NCBI GenBank assembly: GCA_017524525.1
Contig: JAFXVM010000005.1
Coordinates: forward strand, 1 to 64,000
Length of the DNA: 64,000 nucleotides
Source: Alphaproteobacteria bacterium
GTDB taxonomy: Bacteria > Pseudomonadota > Alphaproteobacteria > Rs-D84
Reading direction: 5' to 3'
Within the stretch, counting starts at the first letter, position 1, and each line of letters starts with the position of its first letter. Below the pieces are notes generated by a model. It did no database searches. It saw only the letters and a program-made list of their open reading frames with translations, and was not told where the DNA came from. The translations under genes and the position numbers were made by a program. Below are positions 15,033 through 59,664 of the stretch, piece by piece.

Positions 15033-15078
15033 TTCTTTTTTCCTTACCATTCTTTCGAGACTTTGACCAAGCCCAAAA

Positions 15079-15116
15079 ACACTTAAATCTCTACTTTTTA
15101 TAGCAATTTTAAGTGT
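15079..15116. repeat. 9-bp inverted repeat flanking the secA -10 box
   Basis: ACACTTAAA at 15079-15087 and TTTAAGTGT at 15108-15116 are perfect inverted copies around the secA -10 element. One arm lies in the promoter spacer, the other around the expected transcription start. It could be an operator; no regulator is identified. Confidence 0.45.
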
Positions 15117-15125
15117 CTGGGTCAA
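15097..15125 (-). promoter_or_regulatory. secA promoter
   Basis: TTGACC, 17 bases, TATAAA on the minus strand, giving an expected leader of nearly 60 bases before the secA ATG. Confidence 0.7.
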
Positions 15126-15200: not shown

Positions 15201-18200
15201 TTACCATTTTTCCACAGACTTATCATAGGCATTATACAACGTATTTGCATCTTTTTGGACGTGGAATTTCTTTTGTGACCGGCTATTAATCGGCAAATCT
15301 GCATCTTCTTTAAGCAACATATAACTCGTACCCTTAGCGGTTTCAATTCTTATCGCAGGCAAATCGGCTTCTTTTTTGTCATACAGACAGATTTTATCTT
15401 CGCCAGCATGCAACCATTTACCAGATTCACATACAAATTCCCATGTCGCATAGAATACCTTGTCGCCTGTATCATCTGCAGCAACAGATGTCGCACCACA
15501 GCCAGAATATTCACCTGTTTCTTCATTATAACCTGTGCACCAACCGGCAAACTTATAACTGTCATGTGTCACACCTGGGTTGTCTGGTAAAGTTGCGCCT
15601 TCGCCATAGACATAACTTTCCGGCGACAAACCAGTCAATATATTATTTTGATATTTGTATGTAATAGACCATCCGTCTGGTACACACAAAGTATTTTCAG
15701 CGTTCCAATGATAATTTTCTGTACAATTCCATTGAGCAAAGAATGTCAATTTACCATGCTTTCCTCCTGCTATCCAACCAGAAATATCTTCATCCGCGGT
15801 ATCTTTCCAACCAATGAATTCATAACCAGGTTTCGCTACTTTTCTTTCTACATCTGTCTTTGTTGGTAACGAAACATTTTCTACCATCGTATATTTAACT
15901 GGTTCAAGCCCAAAGATTTCGCTTGTGCTGTCCATATATGTGATAGTATACGGGGCAGCCTTTGGAACAGCATAACAATTCACATCGTCCAAGATATTCC
16001 ATTTGTTAACACTGTCACCATCAACATTAAATGTATTGTTATCATATTTGCATTCCCACTTATCAAATTCATAACCATCATCAAAATCGCACCAATCAGC
16101 ACCATTTGTCTTGGTTGCATATGTATATGATTCATCAAAGGCTACTGAATCATTGGCCTTATACTCGTCATCGTTTTCGTTACAATAATATTTTACATTG
16201 TATGTGTATGCTTCCAAATCGGCATAAACCGTCACTGTGCCATTTGTATCAGCGGGCGCTTCACCAGCAGACCATCCAGTAATATAGTTATTATCAACAG
16301 TCTTCCAACCATGGAACACATAACCTGTTTTTGCGTATGTTTCTGGCAGCGACACATTTTCTGTAACCTTGTAAGTATAATAATGTGTATCGAAAGTATC
16401 TATTCTTTGGTTGCCGTCCATGTAAACAATATTAAAGTCTCTTGGTGTTAGTTGTGCATACAAAGTTTTATTACCAGACCAATTCTTTTGTGCAACACGC
16501 ACATTTAACGGTGTTTCACAAGTTTGAACGCCTTCGCACCAACCAAGGAATTTATAACCAGGTACAGAATAATCCATCAAACTTACATCTTCACCATAAG
16601 AATACGTTGCGCTGCCAACCAAATTCGCGTCTTCATCGTCGCCACGCGTCACCGTATCTCTATAGTTTATTGAATAAGATTCTGGTTCATACTTACAATA
16701 ATAATCTTCCCCGTTATAGTTAATAAGAGCTTTATTTCTGTAATAAAGTTTGCCTGGTTCCTGTGTGATATATCCAAATTGTTCTGCACACGGTCTATAG
16801 CAATCACCCATTGATGTTGCATCGTCATCAGCATGTGGATAGTTTGTTGGACACGGATAACAATTATTACCAACTGTATATTCTGTATCTGAACAGCCAT
16901 CTCTCAAATAAGCATACACTACTTGATCTTGTGCCCTCTGCGGTGTTTGTGTCACCTTGTTTGCTGGCACAAAGTCGCTTCTTTCACAAACATCATTATT
17001 ACAATTATACCATCCAAAGAACCTATAGCCATCAAACTGCGGATTTGTTGGATATGTTTCAGGATGTCCTGGTCTAAATGTTGTTGGTGTCAAAGTACTT
17101 GTATCACGACTTTCTCCCTGTGGTGTTATCGCTACATAGGTAATACTAAACGGCACTTCGCTCATATCTATTATCGCTTTGCAATATTTACCACCTGCTG
17201 GTATTTCAAACGGAAGCGTCCGTGCACCGTTAAGCGGATATTGTTCTCCCACAGTAGATAATTCACTATGACCATCCCAGCATCTCCATCCCCAGAATAC
17301 GCCTTTGTCTTCTTCTGTTCTGTTACAAGATTCTTCATCACCGCTTTCCTCTGGGCTTTGAACGATTTCGCCAATTTCGCCATACTTTGTATATTCCTGG
17401 TTGTTACAATAGAAAGTCACATATTCTGCAGGTTCCCACTTTGCCCACAAAGTGAAATCACCCGTACGCCCAGCTGGCACATAAGTCACTGCTTCACCAG
17501 AATAGTTTGCATTATCATACCAACCCTTAAAGTTGTAATGATCTTTCTTAGGCTCTTTTAATATTTGCATGTTTCTCACTTCAGTATCATTAACATCTTC
17601 AATAGTATACGTACTTGGGTTGGTTTCGCCGTTTCGCAACGCACCACCGTCCATTTCATAGGTTATACGCCATACGATTGGTTCACAATTATCTGGACTT
17701 TCTTCAGTGTATCCAAACTGACAAGGGTTCCATTTTGCATACAAATTGATTGTGCCACCTTCTGGTTTATTTGGCAGGCTAGTTACTTTTTGAGTAAAGC
17801 CACTATCCAAATACCATCCTTCAAAAGAATATGTTGTTTCTGTTGGTCTTGGCACCATACGAACGAGTTTTCCGGTGGTATTAAGACTATTTCTTTCTGC
17901 CCAAGTATATGATGTTTTGTTTGGATTTTCCGTTGCACCATCTGGCCACATACCATGTCCGTTATCATTATACACAATTTGATACGTATAAACACATGTA
18001 TTGCTGTCTTGATAATGTTTGCCACTAATCTCTTTTGCTTGAGGTTTTTGTTCACACTTTTTATAGCATTTCTGTACTTCCATATCAAACAGAGGAAACG
18101 CAGCAGAGCAGGTTCTAACATCTGCGTAAAGTTTCACATCGCCATAAGTTGGTTCTACTGTTTCTCCTAAACCTATGGTACGTCTAGCATAAGGCACCAC

Positions 18201-21200
18201 AGGATTGCTGCCCAAATTACTCTTTTGATAATACCACCCAAGGAATACACCAGTTGGTATTTCAATAGTTTGCGTTGACGTATTTTGCGCATAATATGTC
18301 TTTGTTCCATAGGTGTATTTTGACGGTGTCAAACCAGTCAATTCTTGTTCTTGGTTATTGGCATCAATATAATAATATTTAATCTGATATTTCTTTGCTG
18401 CAAAACGTGCCCAGAATTCCAAATCACCTGTTGTTCCTTGGGCCACAGTCTGTGTTTGCGAACAACTCGCATTATTTTCATCAAAATCAACATCAGCCGT
18501 ACACCACCCAAGGAATTCATATCCTGTTTTGGTTGGATTATTTAACGTGAATGTTTCTGTATTAATAGTATATGTTGTCGGGTTTTGCGGTGACACTGTT
18601 CCATTGTCTAAATGGTATATTATTCTATATTCGTCTTCACCCCAGTCCGCTGTACATGTAACTGTTCTAGCATCATCAGTGTTCGGCGCATCTGGCATAA
18701 GGAAAGTCGCGGTTCCATTGACACCTTTTAATCCTACACCATTGTCACAATTCCACTTTTTGATATCGTATCCATAGCGCACACACTTCGCTTCGCCATT
18801 TTCAACATTTGGTTTCACTGTCACACGTTCACCATACAAATATTCATTTTCATCAGTTGGTGGTGTACCTTCTGCGTCATTACCACAGCTATATACAACC
18901 GTATATTTATTATCTGTCCAATTTGCCGTACAAGTTGTTGTATCATCGTCCAAAGTAATTAGATCCTCAGCACCATATGTTTCTCCTTTGCAAGCCCATG
19001 TGCCAGCAAAAGTTTTTCCAGTCACAGCACAACTTCCAGCACCACCAGCTACCGTGGTTGTATAAGGATACACAACAGACACTGAAGCAGGGGCATTACC
19101 GGTCGCATCATCACCACATTCATATTGCAAGGTTCTTGTAACACCTTCACAAACCGCAGTACAGTTCAAATCAGCATTGAAATTATAATTTTCAATACTA
19201 CCTTCGTCTTCATAGAAATTTGATTTGACACTATTGCTGTTGGCACCACCAACTGAACAATTCCACCCAGCAAACTCTGTATATTGTGGACATGCACATA
19301 CTTTATTTACCGGCGCAAATTGATAACTGTCACCAGAAATAACCCCTATAAAGAAATCTTTATATTTTTGGTCTGCTGGTCCACCAGCAACAGCCGTACC
19401 ACCATCACAGTCAAAGTTTACATGATATTCAGGTTCAACACATTTTTCTTTGGCAGAGAACAAGCTGTCAAGGAACCGATTCTTGTTTAGCATTGATTGT
19501 GTTGTTTCTGTGGCACACGATGATGCACAATCTCTTTCACACAAATCATATGTATTATAAGAGTTACCTGTTTCAACAAAATTTGTATTGCGTACATGAT
19601 TCATAGCACTGTTTTCTGCCTTATAACCAACGGCTTTACATTCGCAACTATATTCACTTGAATTGGAAACACTTGTTTTTGATTGTACACACTGTGATAT
19701 CCCCTTTACATAACCTTGGTTTTCATACCATAACAACCAATTGTTTGCTACAAATTCACTATAAGTTATATTTAAAGTCCCATCAGTATGGTCTTTGCTA
19801 TCCTGTGCTTTATAACTAGTATATGATTGACGTTTCAAAGACTTCAAAGGATTTGCGCCAAAAACTTCACCTTCAGCACAACCTTTTTGCGTCATGTTTG
19901 CTAACAATGTAATATCACGCAAATCAAAATCTTCCGCTGTTGCATTAATCGTATAATTAAGCTGTGCAGATGTTCCCACTGGACAACTTAATGTCGTTCC
20001 CGACTCTTCTACATCTTCAATTTCGCACCAACCAGCAAACGTATAATCACCCTCTGGATTCACAGCTGCAACGCTAATAATATCTGTAATGTTGTATGTT
20101 GCAGGATGCGACTTACCCGTTGTTTCACGGAATGAGGTTATAGCATCACCTTCTTCATCAACATATGTGATGTTGTATTCTATTGGAACACATTGATCAT
20201 GGTTAGTATTATTCCAATTATAACCTTTTGCAGCACAATTCCATATTGCCGTACATTCGACATTACCCGCAGGCATTGTGATTTCGTCGCCTGCATCTTT
20301 GTTTCCTAATTCGTTATCACACTCCCAATTTTGGAAAACAAAACCTGTGTCTGGCGATATACTTACTTCTGTATTAGATTTTACAGCATAAGTAGACTTA
20401 TATTCAATATTCGCATCTTCGTAATTTAGAGCATTTTCCGCAGCATGGTCACCAGGTTTATATGTCACAGAATATTTCAGTTTGCTCCACACAGCAGAAC
20501 ATTTAACACCATTTGCATTATGCATCGAGAATTGGTCACCAAAATTAAATATATGTTCAGCATTTGCTTCGTCACCATCTACACCATTCTCACGAATAGT
20601 AAGGCCAGGGCAAGACCAACCTTGGAAGTCATATCCCGCCACCCCACAAGTTTCGCCGTCACCGTTTAAAGTAGCCTGACCATCCATATCAACAGATTGT
20701 GCATTTGGTGTGGAACCCGACGACATACTAGTGTCATCTGGCACATTACAATCATATGTGATATTAATCTTGTTTGGTGTATATATCGCATATACTTCCA
20801 GATTATTAGTACTTGTCCACAGTATTTCACCAGAGAAATTAGCAACTGTCGCATCTGGCTCCGTGCTCCAACCAACAAAGGTATACCCACCCGCAGCATA
20901 GATGTTTGGATCAGCCGTTGCAACACCACCTTGCAAAACCGTGTAATTTTCACCGTACGTTGCACCACCAATCCCTGTATCAGCATTATACTGATCAACG
21001 TAATCTTGAACTCCGTCCGCAGCATTGGCACCCCTGTGATATGTGACCTTGTAATGCTTTGGCGTCCATTGGGCAGTGCAGATGACATTGCTATCATAAC
21101 TGTATGTACCTGTTGCGTGTTCCGCAAAATAAATTTTTTCATCAGCATCCGCAGGCAAAGTCGGTTCACCTGGCAAACCTGGGCAAGACCATCCTGCAAA

Positions 21201-22724
21201 ATCATAACCATCTAAGTTACAAGCATTGTCACTAAGTGTATAGCTGCCATCCGTATATACCGTTGTATCTGCTATCACCGTGTTATCTGTAGCCGTAATA
21301 TATTCTTCTCCGTCAAAGAAGGTCTTTTCACCACATTCGTACGAAATCGTATGGTCATCAGGTGTATATATTGCATACAAAGTCAACCCGGCATCCGTTG
21401 CCCATGCACTTTGTGACACACCAGCAGAATATGTTGTTCCACTATCATCTGCCATAGTATTCCAATGGTCAAACGTATAACCCGCATCAGCAGTAATACC
21501 TGTCTCGTTCAAAGTTGCGGTTGTCCAATTTTGACCAAAAGTCAAAGCGTTTGCCGCAACATATGGATCTGGATCAGCAGTACCATGTGCACCCGACCAA
21601 TAGTTAATATTATATTTACTTGTTTCCCAATCGCCATAACATGTGACACCGTTTGCATTGTGAATGTACACCGTAGTCCCATTTGAGATAGGCAAAGTTC
21701 TGCCTTCTGTTAATGTATATGCAGTATCTGTCGAATCGCTTAAACCACTTGTACATTTCCAACCATTAAATGTATACCCCGGCAAAGTACAACTTGAATT
21801 AAGCACCCCAGAAGCACCCATGTTTATTGTCTGGCTATCCGGGCTAGGTCCTGTTCTGTCCGCCATCGTAGATGCATCTTGTGGATAATTGCAATCGAAT
21901 CTAATAGTAACTGGATTTGAAACATACACGGCATACAAGGTTAAATCGCTAAGCCCTGTCCAAGCAGATTGTTGTGCATTTGCCACATAACTTGTTCCCG
22001 TACCATCAGGAGATGTATTCCAACCATTAAAAGTATACCCAGACTGCGCTTCAACATGTGCCGCCGTTGCAGATTGCGTTGTCCACACAGCATCATATAC
22101 AGCACCACCGACACTTGTACCCGGTCCAAACACAGTCGGCGCATTGTAACCAGAAGCATAAGCACCACCATTTGCCGTATTCGCATCATAAGTCACACTA
22201 TACTGATTTGGCATCCACTGTGCAGTTAAAGTTACCGTATTTGCAGGGGTTGCACTCGAAGAATCATAACCATAACTCGCCAATGTTCCACCAGTATAAT
22301 CACCGTTTGGCAAAGAAGATTGACTTCCTTGGTATAAAACATAAGTAGCAGGAGAAGCTGGCAAATCGCCATTTGTCAAATTAACAGGAGATTCCCAACC
22401 TGTAAAATGATAACCTGGTGCAGAAAAATCGCAATTCTGCAAACTAATATTAATATCATCAAATGTTACAGTTTGCGAATTTGTATTTCCCGATACAGAA
22501 CTTGTTCCACCAGTAGTTCCACCGTCATAGGCGATAATATACTGATTCGCTTCCCATTGGGCTTTGTAAGCAACTCTATCACCAGGCTCCACATTGTTAA
22601 TAGTAGCACCAGAACAATCTGCACTTTGGTCTTCTGCATCTATTGTATAGCCGACACTCTCGGCGACAACAGTCGCCGAAAACAGCACAAATGCCATAAA
22701 AAATGTCAGCAATCTTTTATACAT
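15201..22724 (-). CDS. Giant secreted InlB-B repeat protein (2507 aa)
   Basis: Last and largest gene of a five-gene tandem array. A signal peptide ends near ATVVA. The body is about 23 copies of a 65-80 residue beta-grasp-like unit with the InlB-B / Listeria-Bacteroides core: an I-x-Y strand, then GYxFxGW, then a LYAxW or CTAxW end. Examples are GYTFNGWNTSPDG, GYDFAGWSCPG and HYNFKGWYDNAN. One CxC-rich module (module A, DNA about 19510-19780) and shorter CPxxY...C..C stretches interrupt the array. The last 75 residues (from about KWLHAGEDKICL to the end) are repeat-free and unlike the siblings. There is no LPXTG or autotransporter barrel. The start at 22724 has only a weak ribosome-binding site. 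Likely a surface or secreted adhesin-like fibre; this role is inference. Confidence 0.88.
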   Translation of the reverse strand: MYKRLLTFFMAFVLFSATVVAESVGYTIDAEDQSADCSGATINNVEPGDRVAYKAQWEANQYIIAYDGGTTGGTSSVSGNTNSQTVTFDDINISLQNCDFSAPGYHFTGWESPVNLTNGDLPASPATYVLYQGSQSSLPNGDYTGGTLASYGYDSSSATPANTVTLTAQWMPNQYSVTYDANTANGGAYASGYNAPTVFGPGTSVGGAVYDAVWTTQSATAAHVEAQSGYTFNGWNTSPDGTGTSYVANAQQSAWTGLSDLTLYAVYVSNPVTIRFDCNYPQDASTMADRTGPSPDSQTINMGASGVLNSSCTLPGYTFNGWKCTSGLSDSTDTAYTLTEGRTLPISNGTTVYIHNANGVTCYGDWETSKYNINYWSGAHGTADPDPYVAANALTFGQNWTTATLNETGITADAGYTFDHWNTMADDSGTTYSAGVSQSAWATDAGLTLYAIYTPDDHTISYECGEKTFFDGEEYITATDNTVIADTTVYTDGSYTLSDNACNLDGYDFAGWSCPGLPGEPTLPADADEKIYFAEHATGTYSYDSNVICTAQWTPKHYKVTYHRGANAADGVQDYVDQYNADTGIGGATYGENYTVLQGGVATADPNIYAAGGYTFVGWSTEPDATVANFSGEILWTSTNNLEVYAIYTPNKINITYDCNVPDDTSMSSGSTPNAQSVDMDGQATLNGDGETCGVAGYDFQGWSCPGLTIRENGVDGDEANAEHIFNFGDQFSMHNANGVKCSAVWSKLKYSVTYKPGDHAAENALNYEDANIEYKSTYAVKSNTEVSISPDTGFVFQNWECDNELGNKDAGDEITMPAGNVECTAIWNCAAKGYNWNNTNHDQCVPIEYNITYVDEEGDAITSFRETTGKSHPATYNITDIISVAAVNPEGDYTFAGWCEIEDVEESGTTLSCPVGTSAQLNYTINATAEDFDLRDITLLANMTQKGCAEGEVFGANPLKSLKRQSYTSYKAQDSKDHTDGTLNITYSEFVANNWLLWYENQGYVKGISQCVQSKTSVSNSSEYSCECKAVGYKAENSAMNHVRNTNFVETGNSYNTYDLCERDCASSCATETTQSMLNKNRFLDSLFSAKEKCVEPEYHVNFDCDGGTAVAGGPADQKYKDFFIGVISGDSYQFAPVNKVCACPQYTEFAGWNCSVGGANSNSVKSNFYEDEGSIENYNFNADLNCTAVCEGVTRTLQYECGDDATGNAPASVSVVYPYTTTVAGGAGSCAVTGKTFAGTWACKGETYGAEDLITLDDDTTTCTANWTDNKYTVVYSCGNDAEGTPPTDENEYLYGERVTVKPNVENGEAKCVRYGYDIKKWNCDNGVGLKGVNGTATFLMPDAPNTDDARTVTCTADWGEDEYRIIYHLDNGTVSPQNPTTYTINTETFTLNNPTKTGYEFLGWCTADVDFDENNASCSQTQTVAQGTTGDLEFWARFAAKKYQIKYYYIDANNQEQELTGLTPSKYTYGTKTYYAQNTSTQTIEIPTGVFLGWYYQKSNLGSNPVVPYARRTIGLGETVEPTYGDVKLYADVRTCSAAFPLFDMEVQKCYKKCEQKPQAKEISGKHYQDSNTCVYTYQIVYNDNGHGMWPDGATENPNKTSYTWAERNSLNTTGKLVRMVPRPTETTYSFEGWYLDSGFTQKVTSLPNKPEGGTINLYAKWNPCQFGYTEESPDNCEPIVWRITYEMDGGALRNGETNPSTYTIEDVNDTEVRNMQILKEPKKDHYNFKGWYDNANYSGEAVTYVPAGRTGDFTLWAKWEPAEYVTFYCNNQEYTKYGEIGEIVQSPEESGDEESCNRTEEDKGVFWGWRCWDGHSELSTVGEQYPLNGARTLPFEIPAGGKYCKAIIDMSEVPFSITYVAITPQGESRDTSTLTPTTFRPGHPETYPTNPQFDGYRFFGWYNCNNDVCERSDFVPANKVTQTPQRAQDQVVYAYLRDGCSDTEYTVGNNCYPCPTNYPHADDDATSMGDCYRPCAEQFGYITQEPGKLYYRNKALINYNGEDYYCKYEPESYSINYRDTVTRGDDEDANLVGSATYSYGEDVSLMDYSVPGYKFLGWCEGVQTCETPLNVRVAQKNWSGNKTLYAQLTPRDFNIVYMDGNQRIDTFDTHYYTYKVTENVSLPETYAKTGYVFHGWKTVDNNYITGWSAGEAPADTNGTVTVYADLEAYTYNVKYYCNENDDEYKANDSVAFDESYTYATKTNGADWCDFDDGYEFDKWECKYDNNTFNVDGDSVNKWNILDDVNCYAVPKAAPYTITYMDSTSEIFGLEPVKYTMVENVSLPTKTDVERKVAKPGYEFIGWKDTADEDISGWIAGGKHGKLTFFAQWNCTENYHWNAENTLCVPDGWSITYKYQNNILTGLSPESYVYGEGATLPDNPGVTHDSYKFAGWCTGYNEETGEYSGCGATSVAADDTGDKVFYATWEFVCESGKWLHAGEDKICLYDKKEADLPAIRIETAKGTSYMLLKEDADLPINSRSQKKFHVQKDANTLYNAYDKSVEKW

Positions 22725-22763
22725 TTATTTTTTTATTCTTACTTTTTTTATATCTCCCAATTA

Positions 22764-23984
22764 CTATTGAATATTCCATCCTTTGAATGTATAACCTGTC
22801 TTTGTTGGGTGCGGAATAGTGGTTATGCTGCCGACATTCCATTCACAGGTTGACTGTCCACCAGAAACCTCATCTTCGCCATCATACCATTCCAAATAGA
22901 CAGGATCTGCATTCCATTGTGCATCACATGTTATCGTTAAATTATTCGTTGTCGCTGCATACGTTCCACTGCCATTAGTAATAGCATTATTTGCCCAAGC
23001 ATAGACGGTTGTCCCCGCTACACCAGTTGCCACAGTATGAGTACAAGACCATCCTGTAAACGTATAACCATTCTTAGTACAATTAGCATCAACTATCGAT
23101 TTTCCTTCAAGTGAGAAAGGCTGATCATACTCTAATGCTGTTGTTGCTGATATAATTCCTGTCGCACCTGTACCACAAGTATATGTGACCGTTCCTGTAT
23201 ATGCAGTCCATTTTGCATGCACTGTTCTATCGACCACAACACACGTACCTGTCGCACTCGTTTCATATGCAGAATCTGTATACCAACCGTCAAATGTATA
23301 ACCGGTCAACGTCAAGTTTGGCAAAGGACTGTCAACACAATCCCACTGAGCAAACCACGTGGTAGGGGTACATGTTGTTCCATTACCATTTGGATCAGCA
23401 ACAATACTTGACGCTTCTGTATTACCAGCTGTTGTTATATAGTATGGCGTATAAGGTGAGGTTCCACCAATATAAGCTGTTCCATTTGTTGGAGCACTAT
23501 AATAACCCTTTAACGCTCTGCTACCACTTTTTGTTGTTGCAGGAGCTGTCACAGGCCAAGAACCAACCTCGGACAACGTATGTGAACCTGGCAAATTAGC
23601 CGTATAGGTTGTTGTCACAGTTGCACCAGTAGGCAGAGTTAAATTCCCAGGAGTAGTATTCAACCCATAATCATTTGTCGTCATTTTGTTTGAACTATTA
23701 GTTCTATCAGTTGACGAACGATACGCACCATCCGCATATCTTGCATACAAAGTTAACGAAGATTGTGTCGCAGCACCATTGGCAAGATTTGAATCCAATG
23801 TAATCTCGCATTCAAGCGGACTAAAATCAGCGACATAAGTGACAGTATCACCAGGATTTACATTGTTAATAGTATCACCAGAACAATCAGCCTCATTTTG
23901 ATTTGGCCCGATTACTGGATCTGCAAAAGCAGGGCAGACTGCCGCCACAGCCAGCATACTCGTTAAAAACAGTCTTATACGCAT
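22764..23984 (-). CDS. Secreted InlB-B repeat protein (406 aa)
   Basis: A short member of the array. The signal peptide ends VCPAFA. The mature N terminus (EADCSGDTINNVNPGDTVTY) is close to that of the giant protein (SADCSGATINNVEPGDRVAY). A long middle region contains LYARYADGAYRSS and RALKGYYSAP, matched by LYTRYDEGAYLES and RAFEGYWDAA in the 433-aa sibling. Then three GYTFxGW repeats follow, and the protein stops just after the last one (GYTFKGWNIQ). AAGGAG precedes the ATG. The gap to the giant gene is 39 bases, so co-transcription is likely. No enzyme motif is seen. Confidence 0.87.
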   Translation of the reverse strand: MRIRLFLTSMLAVAAVCPAFADPVIGPNQNEADCSGDTINNVNPGDTVTYVADFSPLECEITLDSNLANGAATQSSLTLYARYADGAYRSSTDRTNSSNKMTTNDYGLNTTPGNLTLPTGATVTTTYTANLPGSHTLSEVGSWPVTAPATTKSGSRALKGYYSAPTNGTAYIGGTSPYTPYYITTAGNTEASSIVADPNGNGTTCTPTTWFAQWDCVDSPLPNLTLTGYTFDGWYTDSAYETSATGTCVVVDRTVHAKWTAYTGTVTYTCGTGATGIISATTALEYDQPFSLEGKSIVDANCTKNGYTFTGWSCTHTVATGVAGTTVYAWANNAITNGSGTYAATTNNLTITCDAQWNADPVYLEWYDGEDEVSGGQSTCEWNVGSITTIPHPTKTGYTFKGWNIQ

Positions 23985-24064
23985 GATTTTTCTCCTTCAT
24001 TTTTCTCATTTTAGAATATTTTTGTTTTCTATGTCAACCAAGATTCCATCCTTTTTTACTTGAC

Positions 24065-27000
24065 CTATGGCGACGCCACATTGTTTCCAACCAAAGCGGT
24101 TCTAAACCCAACATCATAACCACTCATTGAATTAGTGCACGCTCTGTCACACGCAACCTTGCATCCGGCTGTATTACCATACGAATACCCATTGTGCACC
24201 CATATTGTAGGCATAACATCACATTGTTCAGCATTATTTGACGTATAACTTGTCAATCTGCACCAACAGTTTACCCCTTCAGTCATTTCAATAACGCTTG
24301 CAGTTGAACCTGGAGTGCCACTTGTGGTAGAGCAAAACGCTTCACCCAACACTTTGTCACCAGAATTCCAAGATGCCCCCCATTGTCCTGGCTGTGTTAT
24401 CCCATATGTTGAAGCAGTTGCTCCTCCCCACGAATGCACAATATTATTGTCCAATCCTCTTCCTGCCCAAGCATTAGCCCTTTCACTAACAATTGTATCA
24501 GGAAGCCAACATTTCAAAACCCACCCAGAAAAAGAATATCCTGTTTTTGTCGGTTGAAGAATATTTTCTATAGTTCCACCAAATTCGCAGCTATCTGGTG
24601 TATTAATTTCGGTACCGCCATTTGAATCCCAAACTAAATTTACGTTATGTGGTATCCATACTGCATAAAGGTCTATATCGCCAAAATCTGTTGTGGTAAT
24701 AGTATACCCATTTTCGGTACCAGCATAATTATAGCATAATACAGTGCCACGGCACCAACCAGCAAACGTATAATTGGTTCGTGACGGCACACCAACCGTT
24801 GCCCCAGTTCCATAAGTATATGTAGACGGATTATCATTCTGGTTCGCCCAAGACACACCATCTGCCACATCTGTATTGTAATAGTTTATATTATATGTAT
24901 TTGGCGTCCATTGAGCATATAAATCAACATCACCAGTTTGTGTCGTTGTAACCGTGTAACCACTTACATTATTAGCATAATCATTACAATTATCTGTACC
25001 CACACACCAACCAGCGAACGTATAATTGGTTCGTAACGGCACACCAATCGTTGCACCTGTTCCATAAGTATATGTAGATGGATTATCATTCTGGTTCGCC
25101 CAAGACATACCATCTGCCACATCTGTATTGTGATAGTTTATATTATATGTATTTGGCGTCCATTTTGCATACAAAGTCACCGTATCACTCGACGTCCATG
25201 TGTTATTCGGGAATGTATAAGATACGCCTTCGGCATACGATGTTCCACCAGTCCCAGCGGCATTTGTATACCATGTATCAAAATCATAATCTGTTTTTGT
25301 AAAGCCATTGTTTGCAAGCGTACAGGTTGGATAATTTGTTACACCGCTTCCAGTATAATTATATTGATCTTGAGTACAAGCAGTATCCAGGGTATTCCCG
25401 CCCGTATTCGTATTGCCATCATACGAAATTTTAACATCTCTTTTATAAACTCCCAAATATCGATCAGGATCTGTTATACCAAGCGACATACTGTGCGCAC
25501 TTGAATTTGAATCTACTATAGTCATACTTCCATTTACGTACCAGCCTTGTGGTTCCCAGCCGTTTGTTGCAGAAACAAAAGTCGGCATATTTGGAGCACC
25601 AACAACAGTAACACCAGATGTACTAGCATCAGTATTTTTATAACTTTGATGAACACTATCACTAATTTGATTTGAAGAACTAGCACGATAAACAAATCTA
25701 ATGTTTCTCCCCCATTTACCATACAATGTCACATCAGCATCACATTCAACACTGTTAATCACAGTATCATATCTAAGCGCATCATTAGTCGTCACAGACG
25801 GTGTCCAACCATCAAAATCCCATCCATACGCAGAATCAACAGGCATAGTAGCACCTGGGAAAGTTGTAGTCGTAGCAGGTATCGTTGCCGCACTTACATC
25901 TACAGTTGTCCCATGGTTACAAGTCCGTGTTCCCATTACTGTACTGCCAGTTTTGAATGTTATCGTGTGTGTTGTTAGACTGCAACTGCCAGCCGTTACA
26001 TTTGGGTTACCAGCAGTTGCCGTGGCAGGACCACCAGACGCACCATTATAATTATAACCTGTATCACAGACAAAATTGTAATCGCATGTATTATTTACAA
26101 CAGACGGATTATTTGCCGAACAACTCACAACATGGCTTCCCTGTTGTATTGTGCATGAACACTCTGCCCATTGTGCCGTCACTGTTGTATCTGCATCGCA
26201 CGTAAATGTTGATGTATCCCAACCAGTAAATACATAACCAGTTTTAGTTAACGAATTAGCAGAACCAAGTAGCATATGCATATCTCCCCAATCAGGGAAG
26301 GTCACTGTATCCCCATCATTACATGTAAATGTAGAACCAGACACTGTTTCTGCGGTTCCACCATTATTTACAATTATATCCCCACTTCCATCATCACGAA
26401 CAACCGTTATTGTATGAGTAATGGGTGAACAATCAGGTGCCTGTACAGTTCCAACACCTGCGGCACTCGCCGGAACAGTTCCACCAGACGCATTATTATA
26501 GTTATAATGCGTATCACATGTAAAATCGTAACTGCATGTATTATTAGAAACCGATGCTGTGTTTCCACATGTTGAATGATTTCCATCCGTACATGTACAC
26601 TGCGCCCATTGTGCCGTCACTGTTGTATCTGCATCACACGTAAATGTTGATGTATCCCAACCAGTAAACACATAACCCGTTTTAGTTAACGAATTATCAG
26701 CACCCCAACCAGGGAAAGTCACCGTATCACCTTCATTACATGTAAATGTAGTACTATTAGCAGATACTGTTTCTAAGGTTCCGCCATTGTTTACAACTAT
26801 CGCTCCGTTTCCGCCATCACGATTAACTGTTATTGTATGAGTAATCGGTGTCCACTGGGCAGTGCAAGTCACAGCAGAATTATTCCCAGACACTTGATAG
26901 GTAAAAGACGGGGCATTCGCGGCAGTCCCATCAAAAGAATAAGTATACCCACCTTGCGGTGCTGTACCAGCATCAAGATTATGAGAACAATTCCAACCAA

Positions 27001-28081
27001 TAAAATGGTAGCCCGCATAAGCACAACTATTTGCTGCTAAATCATATCCCCCACCAAATTCAACAGACTGTGGCGAAGGGACGGTTCCTGTTTGTGTCGT
27101 AGAACCAGGCTGTTGCCCACAATTATAGGTAATAGTACCAGCATCTGGGACACACGAATCGTTGGCAGCATTGAATAACTGTCTTGCAAAACCAGGATGG
27201 TCTGCGTTATTTGACACATATTCCGCACAACCATCCGCACAATCTTGACGACAACTTCCAGGAGTAATATACATACGTTGTTTCACCCATAATTGATCCG
27301 ATGGATTTATTGTTGTGTTATTGTTATCAGTGTAACTGGTTAACTTACACCAACATACATCAGCCTGTTGGGGATTTGCACCTGCTTGTATCTGTGCTTC
27401 TGTTGCCGGTTCATTACCATTATATGTACTACATAGTGCGCTGCCACCAAGCGTAAATTCAGGGTTTTCATCACCAAAAAACACTTCCCAAGTATTAGTA
27501 TTAGAATCATAATTTGAACTTGTCCCATCGGTTGTAATATTCAAATCAAAATCAAAATTTTGACGATGATAACCAGTATCACAACTCCATTTCGCATAAT
27601 ACGCACGGTCTCCCGTTGAACCAGTTGTAATTGTTTTTGTCTGTGAACAATTGGTTGTCAAAGCCGCATCTTCACACCAACCAGCAAAAACATAACCTGT
27701 TTTCGTTGGCGTGCTTATCGTGAACGTCTGTGTTTCAACATTATACGTACTTGGGTTCGTAGGGTTATTAGAAGACCACGAACCGCCGTTCAAATGATAT
27801 TCTATGCCATAATCTAGCAGGTCACATGTTGCTGTGTACGAGGTTTCAGACGTCTGTGTTGTTGTCGGATAAGTATAATACCCATTTTGACAAGACCAGT
27901 TATATATACAATTCTCAGCGCCCGTAGGGTCTTTAACAGGGGTTCCATAGCAACCAGAGGCCCCATTTCCATTAGTACAATTACAGGATATATCACCAAA
28001 CGAAACCGATGTCACAAAGCACAACACCATGGCAACGAATGCCATTTTCAAAATACGCTGAAAACTGCGAAAAATCGACAC
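24065..28081 (-). CDS. Secreted InlB-B repeat / Cys-module protein (1338 aa)
   Basis: A mosaic exported protein. After the signal sequence (ending SVSFG) come an N-terminal Cys module (SCNCTNGNGASGC...), about ten InlB-B repeats (GYVFAGWCEDA, GYHFIGWNCSH, GYVFTGWDTST twice, NYTFAGWC twice), two copies of module B and two copies of module A; the second module A copy forms the C terminus (CWCRLTSYT, then CKVACDRAC). I chose GTG at 28081. An ATG at 28108 is in frame, but it coincides with the predicted transcription start, and its codons 4-6 are the AGGAAGGA ribosome-binding site. The segment after GTG (IFRSFQR) matches the start of the 877-aa sibling (NFRSFRR). Internal DNA duplications show recent expansion. 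Confidence 0.85.
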   Translation of the reverse strand: MSIFRSFQRILKMAFVAMVLCFVTSVSFGDISCNCTNGNGASGCYGTPVKDPTGAENCIYNWSCQNGYYTYPTTTQTSETSYTATCDLLDYGIEYHLNGGSWSSNNPTNPSTYNVETQTFTISTPTKTGYVFAGWCEDAALTTNCSQTKTITTGSTGDRAYYAKWSCDTGYHRQNFDFDLNITTDGTSSNYDSNTNTWEVFFGDENPEFTLGGSALCSTYNGNEPATEAQIQAGANPQQADVCWCKLTSYTDNNNTTINPSDQLWVKQRMYITPGSCRQDCADGCAEYVSNNADHPGFARQLFNAANDSCVPDAGTITYNCGQQPGSTTQTGTVPSPQSVEFGGGYDLAANSCAYAGYHFIGWNCSHNLDAGTAPQGGYTYSFDGTAANAPSFTYQVSGNNSAVTCTAQWTPITHTITVNRDGGNGAIVVNNGGTLETVSANSTTFTCNEGDTVTFPGWGADNSLTKTGYVFTGWDTSTFTCDADTTVTAQWAQCTCTDGNHSTCGNTASVSNNTCSYDFTCDTHYNYNNASGGTVPASAAGVGTVQAPDCSPITHTITVVRDDGSGDIIVNNGGTAETVSGSTFTCNDGDTVTFPDWGDMHMLLGSANSLTKTGYVFTGWDTSTFTCDADTTVTAQWAECSCTIQQGSHVVSCSANNPSVVNNTCDYNFVCDTGYNYNGASGGPATATAGNPNVTAGSCSLTTHTITFKTGSTVMGTRTCNHGTTVDVSAATIPATTTTFPGATMPVDSAYGWDFDGWTPSVTTNDALRYDTVINSVECDADVTLYGKWGRNIRFVYRASSSNQISDSVHQSYKNTDASTSGVTVVGAPNMPTFVSATNGWEPQGWYVNGSMTIVDSNSSAHSMSLGITDPDRYLGVYKRDVKISYDGNTNTGGNTLDTACTQDQYNYTGSGVTNYPTCTLANNGFTKTDYDFDTWYTNAAGTGGTSYAEGVSYTFPNNTWTSSDTVTLYAKWTPNTYNINYHNTDVADGMSWANQNDNPSTYTYGTGATIGVPLRTNYTFAGWCVGTDNCNDYANNVSGYTVTTTQTGDVDLYAQWTPNTYNINYYNTDVADGVSWANQNDNPSTYTYGTGATVGVPSRTNYTFAGWCRGTVLCYNYAGTENGYTITTTDFGDIDLYAVWIPHNVNLVWDSNGGTEINTPDSCEFGGTIENILQPTKTGYSFSGWVLKCWLPDTIVSERANAWAGRGLDNNIVHSWGGATASTYGITQPGQWGASWNSGDKVLGEAFCSTTSGTPGSTASVIEMTEGVNCWCRLTSYTSNNAEQCDVMPTIWVHNGYSYGNTAGCKVACDRACTNSMSGYDVGFRTALVGNNVASP
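24753..25164 (-). repeat. Recent in-frame 252-bp tandem duplication in the 1338-aa gene
   Basis: Positions 24753-24912 and 25005-25164 are nearly identical over 160 bases and are offset by exactly 252 bases (84 codons). Both encode a TNYTFAGWC repeat preceded by NDNPSTYTYGTGAT. Few differences are seen, mostly single bases, so the event looks recent. Confidence 0.85.
25979..26842 (-). repeat. Composite repeat unit in the 1338-aa gene, two copies
   Basis: A unit of about 423 bases occurs at 26429-26842 and 25979-26422. Each encodes THTITV, NNGG, a GYVFTGWDTSTFTCDADTTV repeat and then module B. The downstream copy carries a nine-residue insertion (DMHMLLGSA). A third, more diverged copy lies in the 877-aa gene near 29858-30200. 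Confidence 0.8.
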
Positions 28082-28112
28082 TTTCCTGTTATCCTTCCTA
28101 TTATTCATACAA

Positions 28113-28142
28113 AGTGTAGAACAATTTTAGGCATTGCGTCAA
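28113..28142 (-). promoter_or_regulatory. Internal promoter before the 1338-aa gene
   Basis: TTGACG, 18 bases, TACACT on the minus strand. Transcription would begin near 28106, just ahead of the AGGAAGG ribosome-binding site at 28093-28099, which supports the GTG start at 28081. Confidence 0.5.
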
Positions 28143-28179
28143 TCAAAAAGACATTAAATTTATAAAAAAAATACCACAC

Positions 28180-28223
28180 AAAAAAATCAGCGCCAATCGC
28201 ACAATTTATCATACGATTGACGC
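28180..28223 (-). terminator. Terminator between the 433-aa and 1338-aa genes
   Basis: A ten-base stem with one mismatch (28190-28199 and 28214-28223) followed on the minus strand by ATTTTTTT. It lies 31 bases after the 433-aa stop codon and divides the array into at least two transcription units. Confidence 0.7.
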
Positions 28224-28253
28224 CGAAAACGCCAATAATTTTTCGTCTTAATT

Positions 28254-29555
28254 TTATTGACGTTGTGTGGTCACTGTCCATCCATGGAATGTATAACCAG
28301 TTCTTTGGTCTGGTTGTACCAATGGTCCCATTGTACCGCCGTACACACAAGTATTTGGGTTTTCGCCAGTACCATTAAATGTTTCCGTTCCTGTTTCGTT
28401 CAAATACCACACCAAATTCACAGAAGCGTTCTGTGTCCATCGAGCATAACAAGTCACACTAACAGCTGTTGGGTAATTTGGCGCCGGTACTTTGAAGGTG
28501 CCAGTAGCGCCCGCTTGATAATGGGTAAAGGTAGCGGCGTTTCCCACTTGATAAGGGGTAGAATTGTGCGTACCTGTTTCAAGATTGTAATCACAATCCC
28601 ATCCGCCAAAACTATATTCACCCGCGGTATCACCCGATAACGCACACGTATTGGCTGTGCTTGCAAGTTGAAAACCATCGTCGTATTCAACAGAATTTGG
28701 ACCTGGGGCTGACCCGCCAACTGTGATATTGTTTGCTGGCGCTGTACCACAATTATACATGATTGTTCCAGTATGTGGTGTCCATTTTGCATACAACGTC
28801 TCGTTAGAAGTTGTGCAAGTTGTATTCACCGGACTGTCATTAGTCCCAAGCGTGGACGATGTATACCAACCATCGAAATTATAACCTGTTATTTCTGGAT
28901 CCGCCGGGAACGTTCTTGTTGCGCATCCCCACTTAGCATACCAAGTTGTAGACGGGCATGTAGTTCCGCTGGTATACGCGATACTTTTTGCTGCATTCGT
29001 TCCCGCAGTACTTATGATATAATACGGCGAAGTCGAATTAATATACTGCACAGTAGGATTGGTTGCAGCATCCCAATACCCTTCAAACGCCCTGGTCGGT
29101 GTAGAGTTTGAAATCGCAGTTAAAGAATACGCCTGGTTTGTTACAGGATTAGTTGGAACATTTGTTGAAATATCCCATGTCGTTGTCACAGTTGGTCCCG
29201 TTGGTATACCACTGGCACTCAAACCATTTGTGGCTGGTCCCATTAAATTTGTTCTAGCAGATTCAAGATAAGCACCTTCGTCATATCTTGTATACAAAGT
29301 TTGCAAACTGCTGGCAGTATGACTTCCACCATTAGCACTCAAACTGATTGAACATTCATCAGCCACCCAATTTGGCGCATAATAAACTGGACCAGTAGTA
29401 TTTTCGGTATTGTTATAAGTTAATGTATCGCCAGAACAGGGTTCAGAAGTACTGTCATAAGCGATAGTTCCGTTACCATTGGTATCAGTCGTAGCAAGTG
29501 CAGGGCACGCCACCACCATCACCAACATGCTTGTTAAAAAGATTTTACTTTTCAT
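28254..29555 (-). CDS. Secreted InlB-B repeat protein (433 aa)
   Basis: Second gene of the array, closest to the 406-aa protein. The signal peptide MKSKIFLTSMLVMVVACPALA matches the LFLTSMLAVAAVCPAFA of the 406-aa sibling. The mature part carries EPCSGDTLTY, LYTRYDEGAYLES and RAFEGYWDAA, then GYNFDGWYT, EYSFGGWDC and a final GYTFHGWTVTTQRQ. The last ten residues are almost the same as those of the 877-aa protein, and their DNA is nearly identical too. AAAGGA lies six bases before the ATG. A terminator follows. No catalytic motif is visible; a surface or secreted role is inferred. Confidence 0.87.
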   Translation of the reverse strand: MKSKIFLTSMLVMVVACPALATTDTNGNGTIAYDSTSEPCSGDTLTYNNTENTTGPVYYAPNWVADECSISLSANGGSHTASSLQTLYTRYDEGAYLESARTNLMGPATNGLSASGIPTGPTVTTTWDISTNVPTNPVTNQAYSLTAISNSTPTRAFEGYWDAATNPTVQYINSTSPYYIISTAGTNAAKSIAYTSGTTCPSTTWYAKWGCATRTFPADPEITGYNFDGWYTSSTLGTNDSPVNTTCTTSNETLYAKWTPHTGTIMYNCGTAPANNITVGGSAPGPNSVEYDDGFQLASTANTCALSGDTAGEYSFGGWDCDYNLETGTHNSTPYQVGNAATFTHYQAGATGTFKVPAPNYPTAVSVTCYARWTQNASVNLVWYLNETGTETFNGTGENPNTCVYGGTMGPLVQPDQRTGYTFHGWTVTTQRQ

Positions 29556-29635
29556 TTTTCATCCTTTCCTTATGTTTTGTTATTTTGTTTTCTTCATTCT
29601 TTATTTATCTCAACTTCGTTCCAGCAATCAATTTG

Positions 29636-32269
29636 TTATTGACGCTGTGTGGTCACCGTCCATCCATTAAATGTATAACCAGTCTTGGTTGGAGGCACCA
29701 ATGGCGACATGTCTCCGCCATATGTACACGTCGATGGGTTTGGGTTTTGATACAACGGCGTTGCACCAGTTGTTTCCTTGTACCATACTAAGTCTAACAC
29801 ATTTCCACTGCACGATGGGCTGGTGCCTGCACAAGCATCAAACGAACCAGAACCAGACGCAGAACCATTATAATTATACCCACTGCCACAACTAAAATTA
29901 TAATTACACTGATTGTTTGTCACCGTACCAGTCATACTGCAACTGCTAACATTACTGCCAGCCGTACAAGTTCCACACGTACACCACTGTGCATTCACTG
30001 TTCTGTTTTGATTGCAAGTGAAAGAAGAGATTGACCAACCAGAAAATCTTTTTCCAGAACGCGTCATCATATTATCCGCCGTTCCCCAAGTCGGCATAGT
30101 CACACTGCTTCCACATGTGCACGTTGCCGTATTAGAATTTGTTAAATTTTGACCGTTTACAACCAAAGTTCCGCTTCCGCTGTTTTTGTTAACTGTTATA
30201 TTGTACACAGTTTGCTCCCAATTCGCATAAAAGTCTTTGTTACCCGTGCTTCCCATTGCAACAACCTTTGGCCATGCACAACCTAAATTCAAAGCGTTGT
30301 TTTCACACCAATTTGTCATACTATAACAATCGTCGCGTTCTGGTCTGCTTATTGCAAAAGAGGGCGAATTCACAGTATAAACATTCGGCCTTACTGGATC
30401 ACTTTGCGGCCACCTAACATGCGAACCATACGTGGCGTTTTCTTCTACATTGTGATAATTTATATTGTATACAATTTGCAAACACACATCGCTGGAATTG
30501 TTATACGGCTTTCGCAAATCTCGCGTAGATCCGTACATTTTTATACACTCAATTGGACATTCACCCAAACATTCTGAATTATCAGTATAAACATGCGTAC
30601 TCTTATACCATACCGGTTCCAGACCATAAAATGCCGTACCGCCTGCTGCCGCAAACATTGTAGGAATACACCAACAATTTTTTCCGCCGTTGTTCAACGC
30701 TGGCGTTGTTCCAGACGAAGAAGTACTGCAAATCGCCGTGCCACGTACAGTTCCATAACTAAATTCAGCCCACCATTCACCAGGTGCAAAATAACGCGCT
30801 GGTACAGCAGATGCATTATTGCTAGTTGTGGCAGTTCCATCCAACGAAACATCTATTTTTACGCCATCGCCACCAGTTGAATTAAGGCTATCGTCTTTTC
30901 CATTAAGCGGTGACACACCCGGTGTAAGTCCGGTCGCTGCACAACCCCAACGCGCTGTAAATGTCACAGTTCCAGATGTCGCGCGTAAATTTTGAAACCA
31001 TGTACGCGTTATGTTTAACAACGAAGTTGCTGTTGTATGTTGTGTTAAACTGTTTTGCGCACTTCCATAATCGTGCGTTGTAGAATCCATACCTGTTATA
31101 TCCCAACCCAAAAACACAAAACCTGTTTTTGTGGGGTTCGTCACATTAAACGGCGTATTATATGTAGCCGTAGTTGGCTGGCTGCCACCACTAGTGCCAC
31201 CGTTCATGACGTAATTTATATTATAAGTATTCGCATTACATACTGTGTCAAACACCGGTTTACCATCGCTGTCTTTAAGCATAGCAGTACGTGTAGTTTG
31301 ATTTGTTTTTACCTGTTCCGCACAATAATTCGGGCACACTTGTTCGCAACTACTGTACGAACCAACACGTCTCCATATTGCGTCCGAAACAACGTATTTA
31401 GAATTAGCTCTGCCCAACAAACCTTCCATTTTTTCTGTCGCATGACACCAACAATTGTTTCCACTGGTACTATTACTATAACTAGACAAACTGGCGTTGC
31501 ATTTTGATTCTCCATATATATATTTGTATTTATACGTTATCGCATTACCCATTGTGGTTGAATAAGTAAAATACACCATCCATTCGCCATAATCCATACC
31601 AGCAAAAGCACTTCTGTTGTTATCACAATTGTCCCCGCTGGCAGAACCGTTAATATAACATGTCAAATCCCGCCAATTATTATCAGCAGTGGGTGTTACC
31701 CGACCGATGGCATACGAATTCGTTCCGGCTTTACTATAATCAATGTCTGTTCCCAAAGTATAGCCCGGAGTAGAGCAAGTAGAAATTTCACACAACCCAA
31801 CAACACGTCCAATATTACAATAATAACCATAATCGTTATCCGGATTACACCACCACTTTGGTTCCGCATACGACATATCTGGGTGTTGCGCCTGAAATGT
31901 TTTACGAACAAAACTATTAGATTTCCAAGTTGCCACACCGGCACTATTATAACACGCCGTACATGAACTTGACGCACTTTGCCCAACAGATGTTGTATAA
32001 GACCCCGCACCACACAATGTACACACAGTTGGTCTAATATTAGAATTCGTATTAGCATTATACGACCCAATTGGACATTGTTCACATTCTTGATTAGTAT
32101 TACTAATACCAGGCGTAAAAATATCCGCTATACCAAAATTTCCAGCACTACACCAATTATGCACTTCTTCAGCAACCGCCAATTGCACCATACAAACGAC
32201 CGCCAATGGCGCACAAAGCGCCCATACAAAAAACCTTCGAAAACTGCGAAAATTCAGTGTTTTCTTCAC
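29636..32269 (-). CDS. Secreted Cys-module / InlB-B repeat protein (877 aa)
   Basis: First gene of the array and the richest in Cys. After a signal sequence ending QLAVA come CxxCPxGxY-type motifs (ECEQCPIGSY, CTLCGAGSY, CTAC; about residues 60-106) that recall TNFR/ephrin-receptor-like Cys repeats. Then follow module A at about 228-316 and 497-576, InlB-B repeats (GFVFLGWD, KRFSGWSISS), module B at about 763-804, and a final GYTFNGWTVTTQRQ. The start is taken as GTG at 32269; AGGAAGG is only three bases upstream, which is tight, so a slightly later start is possible. Promoter-like boxes lie directly upstream. Confidence 0.86.
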   Translation of the reverse strand: MKKTLNFRSFRRFFVWALCAPLAVVCMVQLAVAEEVHNWCSAGNFGIADIFTPGISNTNQECEQCPIGSYNANTNSNIRPTVCTLCGAGSYTTSVGQSASSSCTACYNSAGVATWKSNSFVRKTFQAQHPDMSYAEPKWWCNPDNDYGYYCNIGRVVGLCEISTCSTPGYTLGTDIDYSKAGTNSYAIGRVTPTADNNWRDLTCYINGSASGDNCDNNRSAFAGMDYGEWMVYFTYSTTMGNAITYKYKYIYGESKCNASLSSYSNSTSGNNCWCHATEKMEGLLGRANSKYVVSDAIWRRVGSYSSCEQVCPNYCAEQVKTNQTTRTAMLKDSDGKPVFDTVCNANTYNINYVMNGGTSGGSQPTTATYNTPFNVTNPTKTGFVFLGWDITGMDSTTHDYGSAQNSLTQHTTATSLLNITRTWFQNLRATSGTVTFTARWGCAATGLTPGVSPLNGKDDSLNSTGGDGVKIDVSLDGTATTSNNASAVPARYFAPGEWWAEFSYGTVRGTAICSTSSSGTTPALNNGGKNCWCIPTMFAAAGGTAFYGLEPVWYKSTHVYTDNSECLGECPIECIKMYGSTRDLRKPYNNSSDVCLQIVYNINYHNVEENATYGSHVRWPQSDPVRPNVYTVNSPSFAISRPERDDCYSMTNWCENNALNLGCAWPKVVAMGSTGNKDFYANWEQTVYNITVNKNSGSGTLVVNGQNLTNSNTATCTCGSSVTMPTWGTADNMMTRSGKRFSGWSISSFTCNQNRTVNAQWCTCGTCTAGSNVSSCSMTGTVTNNQCNYNFSCGSGYNYNGSASGSGSFDACAGTSPSCSGNVLDLVWYKETTGATPLYQNPNPSTCTYGGDMSPLVPPTKTGYTFNGWTVTTQRQ

Positions 32270-32404: not shown

Positions 32405-32614
32405 ATGAAAACAAATATACAAACACTTAAACCCGAACAAATTACCAGCGATGTTTTTATTATCGCACCAACTCAAATTGAAATGATTTCGAACAATTTT
32501 GGTGACGCAGTTGCAGAAGCAATGAATGTTCGCCCACTGTCTCCAAAAATTCGTCAAATCGCGGCTGAAATTTTGACACGCGTTTTACGCGATGCAAAAA
32601 CAATGGGCGAATAA
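32405..32614 (+). CDS. Small hypothetical protein (69 aa)
   Basis: A short soluble protein I do not recognise. It begins MKTNIQTLKPEQ, is rich in helix-forming residues in the second half (KIRQIAAEILTRVLRDA), and has no signal peptide, Cys or membrane segment. AGAGAGA lies seven bases before the ATG. It is divergent from the secreted-protein array and sits 46 bases ahead of rnpB. The opposite strand is also open here, but without a ribosome-binding site. It could be a small regulator; there is no direct evidence for that. Confidence 0.65.
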   Translation: MKTNIQTLKPEQITSDVFIIAPTQIEMISNNFGDAVAEAMNVRPLSPKIRQIAAEILTRVLRDAKTMGE

Positions 32615-32660: not shown

Positions 32661-33013
32661 TTGTTGGGCGCGAAAAAGCATAGCTGAATTGGACTTGAAA
32701 TTTCATATGACCACAATTCAGAGGAAAGTCCGGACTGCAGCGGGACAACATAGCGGCTAATTACCGCGCAGGGCAACCTGACGATTAGAGCAGCAGAGAC
32801 GAGCGTATTAAATTACGGTGAAACGGGCAATCTCTATGTGCAGCAACCTCAAAAAGGATTCCATGATTGTCCCCATCGCTACGGAATCGGGTAGAGGGCT
32901 TGACATTTTGCGGCAACGCAATTTGCAGATTAATTATGCTTGCAACCTTTTTTGTGTTATGTGTGGACACGAATTAGGCTGAACAGAATCCGGCTTATTG
33001 AACGCCCAGCAAA
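32661..33013 (+). ncRNA. rnpB: RNase P RNA (class A)
   Basis: The catalytic RNA that removes 5' leaders from pre-tRNAs. The conserved core AGAGGAAAGTCCGGACT appears near the 5' side, the GGTGAAACGG segment in the middle, and ACAGAATCCGGCTTA near the 3' end. The ends pair to form helix P1 (TGTTGGGCG with CGCCCAGCA), which fixes the boundaries at about 350 nt. A sigma-70 promoter stands immediately before it and a hairpin terminator immediately after. The internal domain is AU-rich compared with well-known alphaproteobacterial versions. Confidence 0.93.
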
Positions 33014-33046: not shown

Positions 33047-33793
33047 TTACATAACTTTTCCATTAATTGGATAAAATGTGACCGAAGTATCACGCCAAGT
33101 ATCATATTCTTTGCGCGGCAACATAGAAAATGGCGAACATGTTTTAATTGCTTCTCGCGCAGTTTCCAAAACATATGCAAAATCAGGATCGGTTTCCGCA
33201 CGACTTTCTGATTCAAACCACAATCTGTCCACTACACCCGTTGGTAAAAATTTTATATGAGCAGTCAAGCGAATATCTTCCAATCCCGGACGAGAAGAAT
33301 CAATATTCCAGCACCTTGTTAACGCGACACGCAAAGCATCAATAACCGATACCGTCATAGTTCTGTCCAAAGACAAGACTTCGCGATTAACACGAACTAC
33401 GGTTTTTTTACGCGGTGCTTCTTTTTCATCTGGTTTTTTATCGTCTTTTTTGTCGGCTTTTTCTTTAGATAAAGTTTTACTTTCGTTTTCAACCATAGTT
33501 GGTTGTTTTAACTGTGTTTTTTCATCAAAGATATTTTTCTTGTCCGGGCTTTTTTTATCATTTTTTTCTTCCTCTTTTTTGTCATCAGCGTTTGTATTAT
33601 AAAGTTTTGTTTCGCTGCCAGATATTTTTACATCTTTTAAATCTATTTCGACAATTTGAACGCGATTTGGTGTCACTAATTTTGCACGCTCAACAACCAC
33701 AGAAAAAGAAAACAGCATTATAGCAATCAAAATCAAATGTCCTAAAATAGACATCATCATATTTTCACTTTTAAATTGCGTACTCTGTTTCAT
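33047..33793 (-). CDS. tolA: TolA-like envelope protein
   Basis: TolA spans the periplasm and links the TolQR motor to TolB/Pal at the outer membrane. The 248-aa protein has one N-terminal membrane segment (about 14-35, ILGHLILIAIMLFSFSVVV), a charged Lys/Glu/Asp linker (about 68-130) and a C-terminal domain (about 145-248) with a Cys pair (TRCWN, KTCSPF) as in TolA/TonB domain III. Its start overlaps the tolR stop by one base (TAATG). The linker is much shorter than in enterobacteria. The terminator follows directly; tolB and pal are not downstream. Confidence 0.82.
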   Translation of the reverse strand: MKQSTQFKSENMMMSILGHLILIAIMLFSFSVVVERAKLVTPNRVQIVEIDLKDVKISGSETKLYNTNADDKKEEEKNDKKSPDKKNIFDEKTQLKQPTMVENESKTLSKEKADKKDDKKPDEKEAPRKKTVVRVNREVLSLDRTMTVSVIDALRVALTRCWNIDSSRPGLEDIRLTAHIKFLPTGVVDRLWFESESRAETDPDFAYVLETAREAIKTCSPFSMLPRKEYDTWRDTSVTFYPINGKVM

Positions 33794-59610: not shown

Positions 59611-59664
59611 CAAGAAAAATTTGATTTTTATTAAAAATTTTATAAAAAAATCATGTGATTTTGC

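Follow-up and report, generated by a model that had tools for sequence, protein, structure and literature searches.

Expanded families of surface proteins are carried by host-dependent bacteria (for example, Mycoplasma and Anaplasma), and PEP-CTERM, T9SS CTD and GlyGly-CTERM are families of secreted proteins tagged at the C terminus. The B repeat of InlB has a beta-grasp-like fold in which the chain runs from beta1 to a last strand that follows the GYxFxGW loop (PMC8900821), and it is from this fold that we infer the strand assignments used below. The corresponding Pfam domain, Flg_new, is counted among the stalk domains of fibrillar adhesins (PMC9210967), and our literature search found no account of InlB repeats in Alphaproteobacteria. 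Within that class, Rs-D84 and the genus Enterousia (described in PMC8035907) have genomes of approximately 1 Mb or less, lack most biosynthesis and have been proposed to depend on a partner cell (PMC12306168).

The DNA analysed here (that is, a window of 64,000 nucleotides in all) belongs to an alphaproteobacterium, as the original prediction had assumed, and carries five consecutive genes of one strand (15201–32269, minus strand), all far longer than chance open reading frames (ORFs) in the region (178 aa at the longest among 20 shuffles). In the direction of transcription, they encode proteins of 877 aa (29636–32269; GTG start; a Cys stretch, two CWC modules, two Flg_new repeats and a half-repeat tail), 433 aa (28254–29555; an N-terminal orphan beta4 strand, Flg_new repeats and a terminal half-repeat tail), 1347 aa (24065–28108; Flg_new repeats and a half repeat, then a C-terminal CWC module), 406 aa (22764–23984; laid out like the 433-aa protein) and 2507 aa (15201–22724; approximately ten Flg_new repeats, one Flg_new_2 and a C-terminal YD tail), the last being a giant whose gene adjoins secA. 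The length of 1347 aa counts from the first ATG; an inner start gives the 1338 aa reported before. All five N termini, read directly, are hydrophobic and signal-peptide-like, in keeping with the signal peptide originally assigned to each gene, and suggest Sec-type export, which makes the five proteins putatively secreted. Purine-rich, ribosome-binding-like sequences precede the genes, and a pattern scan placed a terminator-like hairpin (28187–28226, minus strand; 18 pairs and a T run) between those for the 433-aa and 1347-aa proteins. Elsewhere in the window, ORFs without a Pfam match lie at 4414–6795 (793 aa), 55883–58441 (852 aa) and 59621–62293 (890 aa), the last of which is rich in Cys towards its C-terminal end and adjoins four clustered tRNA genes.

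Profile searches bore out the presence of InlB-type repeats, with Flg_new above its cut-off in all five array proteins (E = 2e-8 to 1e-50) and TIGR02543 of NCBIfam likewise above its own. In BLASTP comparisons among the five, each protein recovers at least one other: the 433-aa and 406-aa proteins align end to end at 34–35% identity, the C termini of the 433-aa and 877-aa proteins are 58% identical over 55 aa, and 598 aa of the 1347-aa and 877-aa proteins align at 28% identity. Duplication is also visible in the DNA, as a tandem pair of 252 nt (80% identical) inside the 1347-aa gene, a 116-nt pair (92% identical) in the array, a 92% identical last 48 nt at the 3' ends of the 433-aa and 877-aa genes, and 56 nt in common (84% identical) at the 5' ends of the 406-aa and 2507-aa genes. 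Between in-frame duplicates within the 1347-aa gene, dN/dS is 0.22–0.55 (0.166/0.529, 0.047/0.216 and 0.240/0.441). Taken together, these sequence relationships show that the five proteins are related by duplication and module shuffling, as had been proposed. The motifs cited earlier as common to the array do exist, although they are less widely shared than was claimed: GYTFxGWTVTTQRQ is exact only in the 433-aa and 877-aa proteins, with a shorter variant in the 406-aa protein, and at the N termini CSG[DA]T occurs in three of the five and LYxRYxxGAY in two.

The CWC module is an undescribed domain of approximately 110 residues with, in alignment, invariant W, G, CS, CWC and W followed by three late Cys; its Cys and Trp are invariant across species. 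It occurs at the C terminus of the 1347-aa protein (24086–24412, minus strand), again in that protein as a second, divergent CWC-type module (27173–27502, minus strand; E = 2.7e-17), and in the 877-aa protein (30503–30796, minus strand; E = 7.2e-28). That unknown Cys domains accompany the repeats was thus a sound prediction: the module has no match in Pfam or NCBIfam, and a sequence search of the PDB gave nothing credible. An AlphaFold model of the C-terminal copy in the 1347-aa protein, built from 66 alignment rows (pLDDT 81, pTM 0.77), places strands before two helices, and structure searches with it found no known fold, the best hits being E = 0.46 in the PDB and 0.19 among viral models with Foldseek, and Z = 4.0 over 57 residues (rmsd 3.7) with VIA. 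Polo-box and HasA-like structures were considered as relatives and rejected, their Z reaching only approximately 4. Stand-alone secreted CWC proteins of approximately 150 aa also occur in congeners, often as adjacent pairs or runs (L073–L140; for example, L115, L116 and L117). Other Cys-rich stretches, as in the 877-aa protein, are GCC2/ephrin-receptor-like at sub-threshold level in Pfam. Chains of the family end in one of three ways: with a half repeat, with a half repeat and then CWC, or, in the giants, with a YD tail (15210–15431, minus strand, in the 2507-aa protein; E = 1.1e-24). In agreement with the original reading, a Pfam scan of the five proteins gave no LRR family at E ≤ 0.1, no domain for LPXTG or GW-type attachment and no beta-barrel family, and the C termini, read directly, are half repeats, CWC or YD tails. 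Nor did any described family match over the full length of the proteins.

The half-repeat tail comprises beta1, beta2 and the GW loop, stopping 3–18 residues after GYxFxGW. It ends the 877-aa (29639–29803), 433-aa (28257–28424) and 406-aa (22764–22901) proteins and stands immediately before CWC in the 1347-aa protein (24506–24649), all on the minus strand and all with a Cys in beta2. At the other end, chains of the family start with a Cys followed by the last-strand motif (V/L)x(L/Y)xAx(W/F). This Cys-beta4 motif was found within the first 85 residues in 16 of 21 members from the same genome (two of these matches fall in the signal region of proteins that repeat the motif just downstream), compared with an average of 3.4 (at most 9) over 500 shuffles and 1.2 per 20 internal windows; it was scored by a motif test on the group, an HMM test being too weak for each sequence. 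By script, the beta2 Cys is present in 18 of 20 terminal half repeats and 2 of 31 internal repeats (Fisher P = 1e-9, which is indicative only because the members are paralogs). Four repeats had been misassigned, two Cys-less 'terminal' ones being internal repeats near CWC and two Cys-positive 'internal' ones being terminal, and after reassignment the Cys is found in 20 of 20 terminal half repeats and no internal repeat. As the tail lacks a last strand and the N terminus supplies one, the two ends of the chain probably form one composite B repeat. The two parts adjoin in small CWC-tailed proteins, with the half repeat following straight after the N-terminal strand, and the simplest interpretation there is a permuted repeat that closes in cis; in the longer proteins, whole repeats lie between the N-terminal strand and the C-terminal half repeat. 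The only repeat-protein model made, an AlphaFold model of the 406-aa protein from four window rows in the alignment, has a pLDDT of 40. Despite the many Cys-rich secreted proteins, a search of the genome for the disulphide oxidant DsbB found none, and disulphides in the family are therefore uncertain.

One congener with a 0.9-Mb genome (G117) has 62 Flg_new matches, which are mostly half repeats in short ORFs spread over many contigs. Approximately 60 dispersed copies of a gene for a secreted, Cys-rich protein of approximately 155 aa were observed there, each with a near-constant half-repeat tail, and the 20 stretches read (L176–L195) have a signal peptide, a Cys-rich body and a nearly constant tail of 50 aa. 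Among 15 copies, which are paralogs and not independent, median dN/dS (Nei–Gojobori) was low in the signal (0.11) and the tail (0.13) and higher in the body (0.40). As the tail has a pS of 0.54 (that is, synonymous sites near saturation) alongside this low dN/dS, its conservation looks like the work of selection and not merely of recent copying. A further 35 half-repeat matches were counted in a second congener (G079), and the amplified family differs from species to species.

The array had been put forward as a possible surface-display system; it is not self-contained, being one occupied site of a genome-wide and genus-wide family. The source genome (965 kb in 18 contigs) has 58 Flg_new matches, against none in 14 control genomes, and at least 27 family ORFs, counted as Flg_new matches plus matches of CWC and YD-tail alignments, all read; they amount to approximately 21,500 aa, or approximately 6.7% of the assembly, and include a 3980-aa protein. 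Four contigs (L027, L030, L031 and L072) end inside family genes, and the count is thus a lower bound. The YD tail is found in 43 of 46 relatives of the same genus and 0 of 32 other genomes, CWC in 36 of 46 and 1 of 32, and Flg_new in 51 of 55 genomes of the genus, three of five others of the family and none of 18 from other families of the order. A search of contigs with an alignment of short CWC proteins, whose single peptide pattern limits its reach, returned only uncultured gut-type proteobacteria, some in records labelled Rickettsiales; the relatives so found are gut alphaproteobacterial metagenome-assembled genomes, including Candidatus Enterousia species. The source genus is most likely Candidatus Enterousia, of the order Rs-D84, and the distribution shows a lineage-specific expansion of the family in a gut bacterium with a reduced genome.

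The array lies between two conserved flanks, secA (12402–15125, minus strand) and a tolA-like gene (33047–33793, minus strand), the latter named by its position beside tolR/tolQ and by its sequence, with no Pfam match. In congeners, the order at the site is tolA, slot a, rnpB, slot b, a small conserved gene, slot c and secA, in which rnpB (RNase P RNA; 32665–33012, plus strand, in the window) divides slots a and b and the small gene (69 aa; 32405–32614, plus strand) divides slots b and c. The content of the interval varies from approximately 0.8 kb to 27 kb between genomes. The site is empty of family genes, with its four landmarks in place, in six genomes (G041, G019, G004, G021, G037 and G035). 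Slot a is occupied in G002, G028, G013 and G015, slot b in G003, G010, G039, G081, G044, G020, G040 and G029, slot c in the window array and in G043 (a single 5087-aa gene), and slots b and c together in G001 (4353, 2594 and 1703 aa); certain other congeners have unrelated genes or a rearranged interval. Occupied congener sites hold one to three giant relatives, and the family genes point the same way as tolA and secA in the cases read. The 2507-aa protein and its slot-c relatives align at approximately 25–45% identity, compared with 87–89% for secA and 69–75% for tolA. The tolA–secA interval is a hotspot for fast-diverging family genes; the locus recurs in congeners in variable form and with no visible decay. 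Family genes also occupy a second conserved site, flanked by an RNase J-like gene and rpsD (rpsD/trpS in the stretches L022:2765-10004 and L209:1-12388), where the source genome has a member of 1060 aa and G002 a giant of 3533 aa. In another stretch (L026:2719-3111), an ORF with a C terminus that by eye resembles a phage-integrase fragment lies approximately 80 bases from a half-repeat-tailed gene, a possible trace of mobility.

No secretion-system gene other than secA was seen beside the array, and no dedicated exporter adjoins it. Elsewhere in the genome there are three TolC-like proteins and a type IVb-pilus-like set made up of PilO, T2SSE and T2SSF genes (L203:10851-15548) and a lipoprotein secretin beside TcpQ (L200:6327-8920); one of these sets runs up to the end of its contig, and no pilin was found. 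This secretin machinery is a candidate outer-membrane route, and its link to the array proteins is conjecture.

On balance, we lean towards secreted, fibrillar-adhesin-like contact proteins of a partner-dependent gut symbiont, with a putative surface role, and suggest that the family probably serves to grip partner or host cells. The Sec-secreted, Cys-rich modular chains would act outside the cell, B-repeat chains would form stalks, CWC and other Cys modules would present or stabilize binding surfaces, and the C-terminal tails (half repeat, half repeat with CWC, or YD) would sort, anchor or assemble the proteins. The composite repeat of a small protein would be a circularly permuted B repeat, closed in cis; that of a longer one could be closed either within the chain or by another subunit joined head to tail. 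Taken further, the half-repeat tail could serve to sort or assemble the proteins of a hitherto undescribed system, at the outer membrane or outside the cell, in which subunits complete each other's repeat, perhaps locked by disulphides, with bodies that diversify and are amplified species by species, although we think this unlikely. Alternatively, the proteins may be periplasmic.

Paralogs with 5' and 3' ends in common and divergent middles, their dispersal in up to approximately 60 copies in G117 and a chromosomal hotspot between tolA and secA would all suit a reservoir for antigenic or phase variation, in which paralogs recombine or switch and so alter what host immunity or phages encounter at the cell surface. 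However, simple-sequence tracts were searched for and none was found, there are no long inverted repeats, and no silent cassettes were seen, members keeping their signal peptides and array genes their ribosome-binding-like sequences; as tail conservation with near-saturated synonymous sites also resembles selection rather than recent gene conversion, we hold such a reservoir to be improbable. A structural matrix (that is, an S-layer-like envelope layer or a filament polymerized head to tail) in place of ligand-binding adhesins is quite improbable: end-to-end assembly would be in keeping with permuted repeat ends, a Cys confined to terminal halves and many near-identical tails in one genome, yet empty tolA–secA sites and very uneven copy numbers among congeners are unlike an essential layer, and the giants bear a different tail. 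Largely neutral bloat by duplication of a non-essential secreted protein could account for the rapid divergence and for the absence of the family from the site in some congeners, but long intact ORFs in a reduced genome, the dN/dS of 0.22–0.55 within the 1347-aa gene, the invariant Cys and Trp of CWC and the strong constraint on the tail had already disfavoured it, and we consider it very improbable.

Rs-D84/Enterousia are widespread uncultured gut bacteria, proposed to be partner-dependent and with no known contact apparatus, and a fast-evolving secreted family that takes up approximately 7% of one such genome, together with its undescribed domain, mapped hotspot and constrained tails, offers concrete candidate molecules for the attachment partner and mode, as well as the testable idea of a common repeat permuted into an end-to-end joining element. 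Among known systems, the InlB B repeat proteins of Listeria and other gut bacteria (PF09479, TIGR02543) have the same repeat family, above curated cut-offs, whereas the array proteins have no LRR or GW domain, belong to a Gram-negative host and combine end-permuted repeats, Cys in terminal halves only and an admixture of CWC. Mycoplasma and Anaplasma families resemble this one as lineage-specific expansions in small genomes; their sequences are, to our knowledge, unrelated to it, and no switching mechanism is seen in the array family. The likeness to C-terminally tagged families lies in dissimilar secreted proteins that have in common a signal peptide and, at the C terminus, a module under constraint, but the tails of the array proteins match no sorting-tag profile of the T9SS or PEP-CTERM type in NCBIfam or Pfam, and no cognate processing or secretion enzyme was identified here. 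Fibrillar adhesins and 'periscope' proteins are likewise secreted chains of great length in which the number of stalk repeats varies, and the stalk by which fibrillar adhesins are recognized, one of repeated domains within a large secreted chain, is present here, secretion being judged from N termini. In contrast to them, the array family has several small paralogs and dispersed amplification, and a Pfam scan of its array proteins gave no known adhesive domain or known surface anchor, CWC being the candidate for the former. The underlying repeat is thus already known, and what is new is the combination of modules and the CWC domain.
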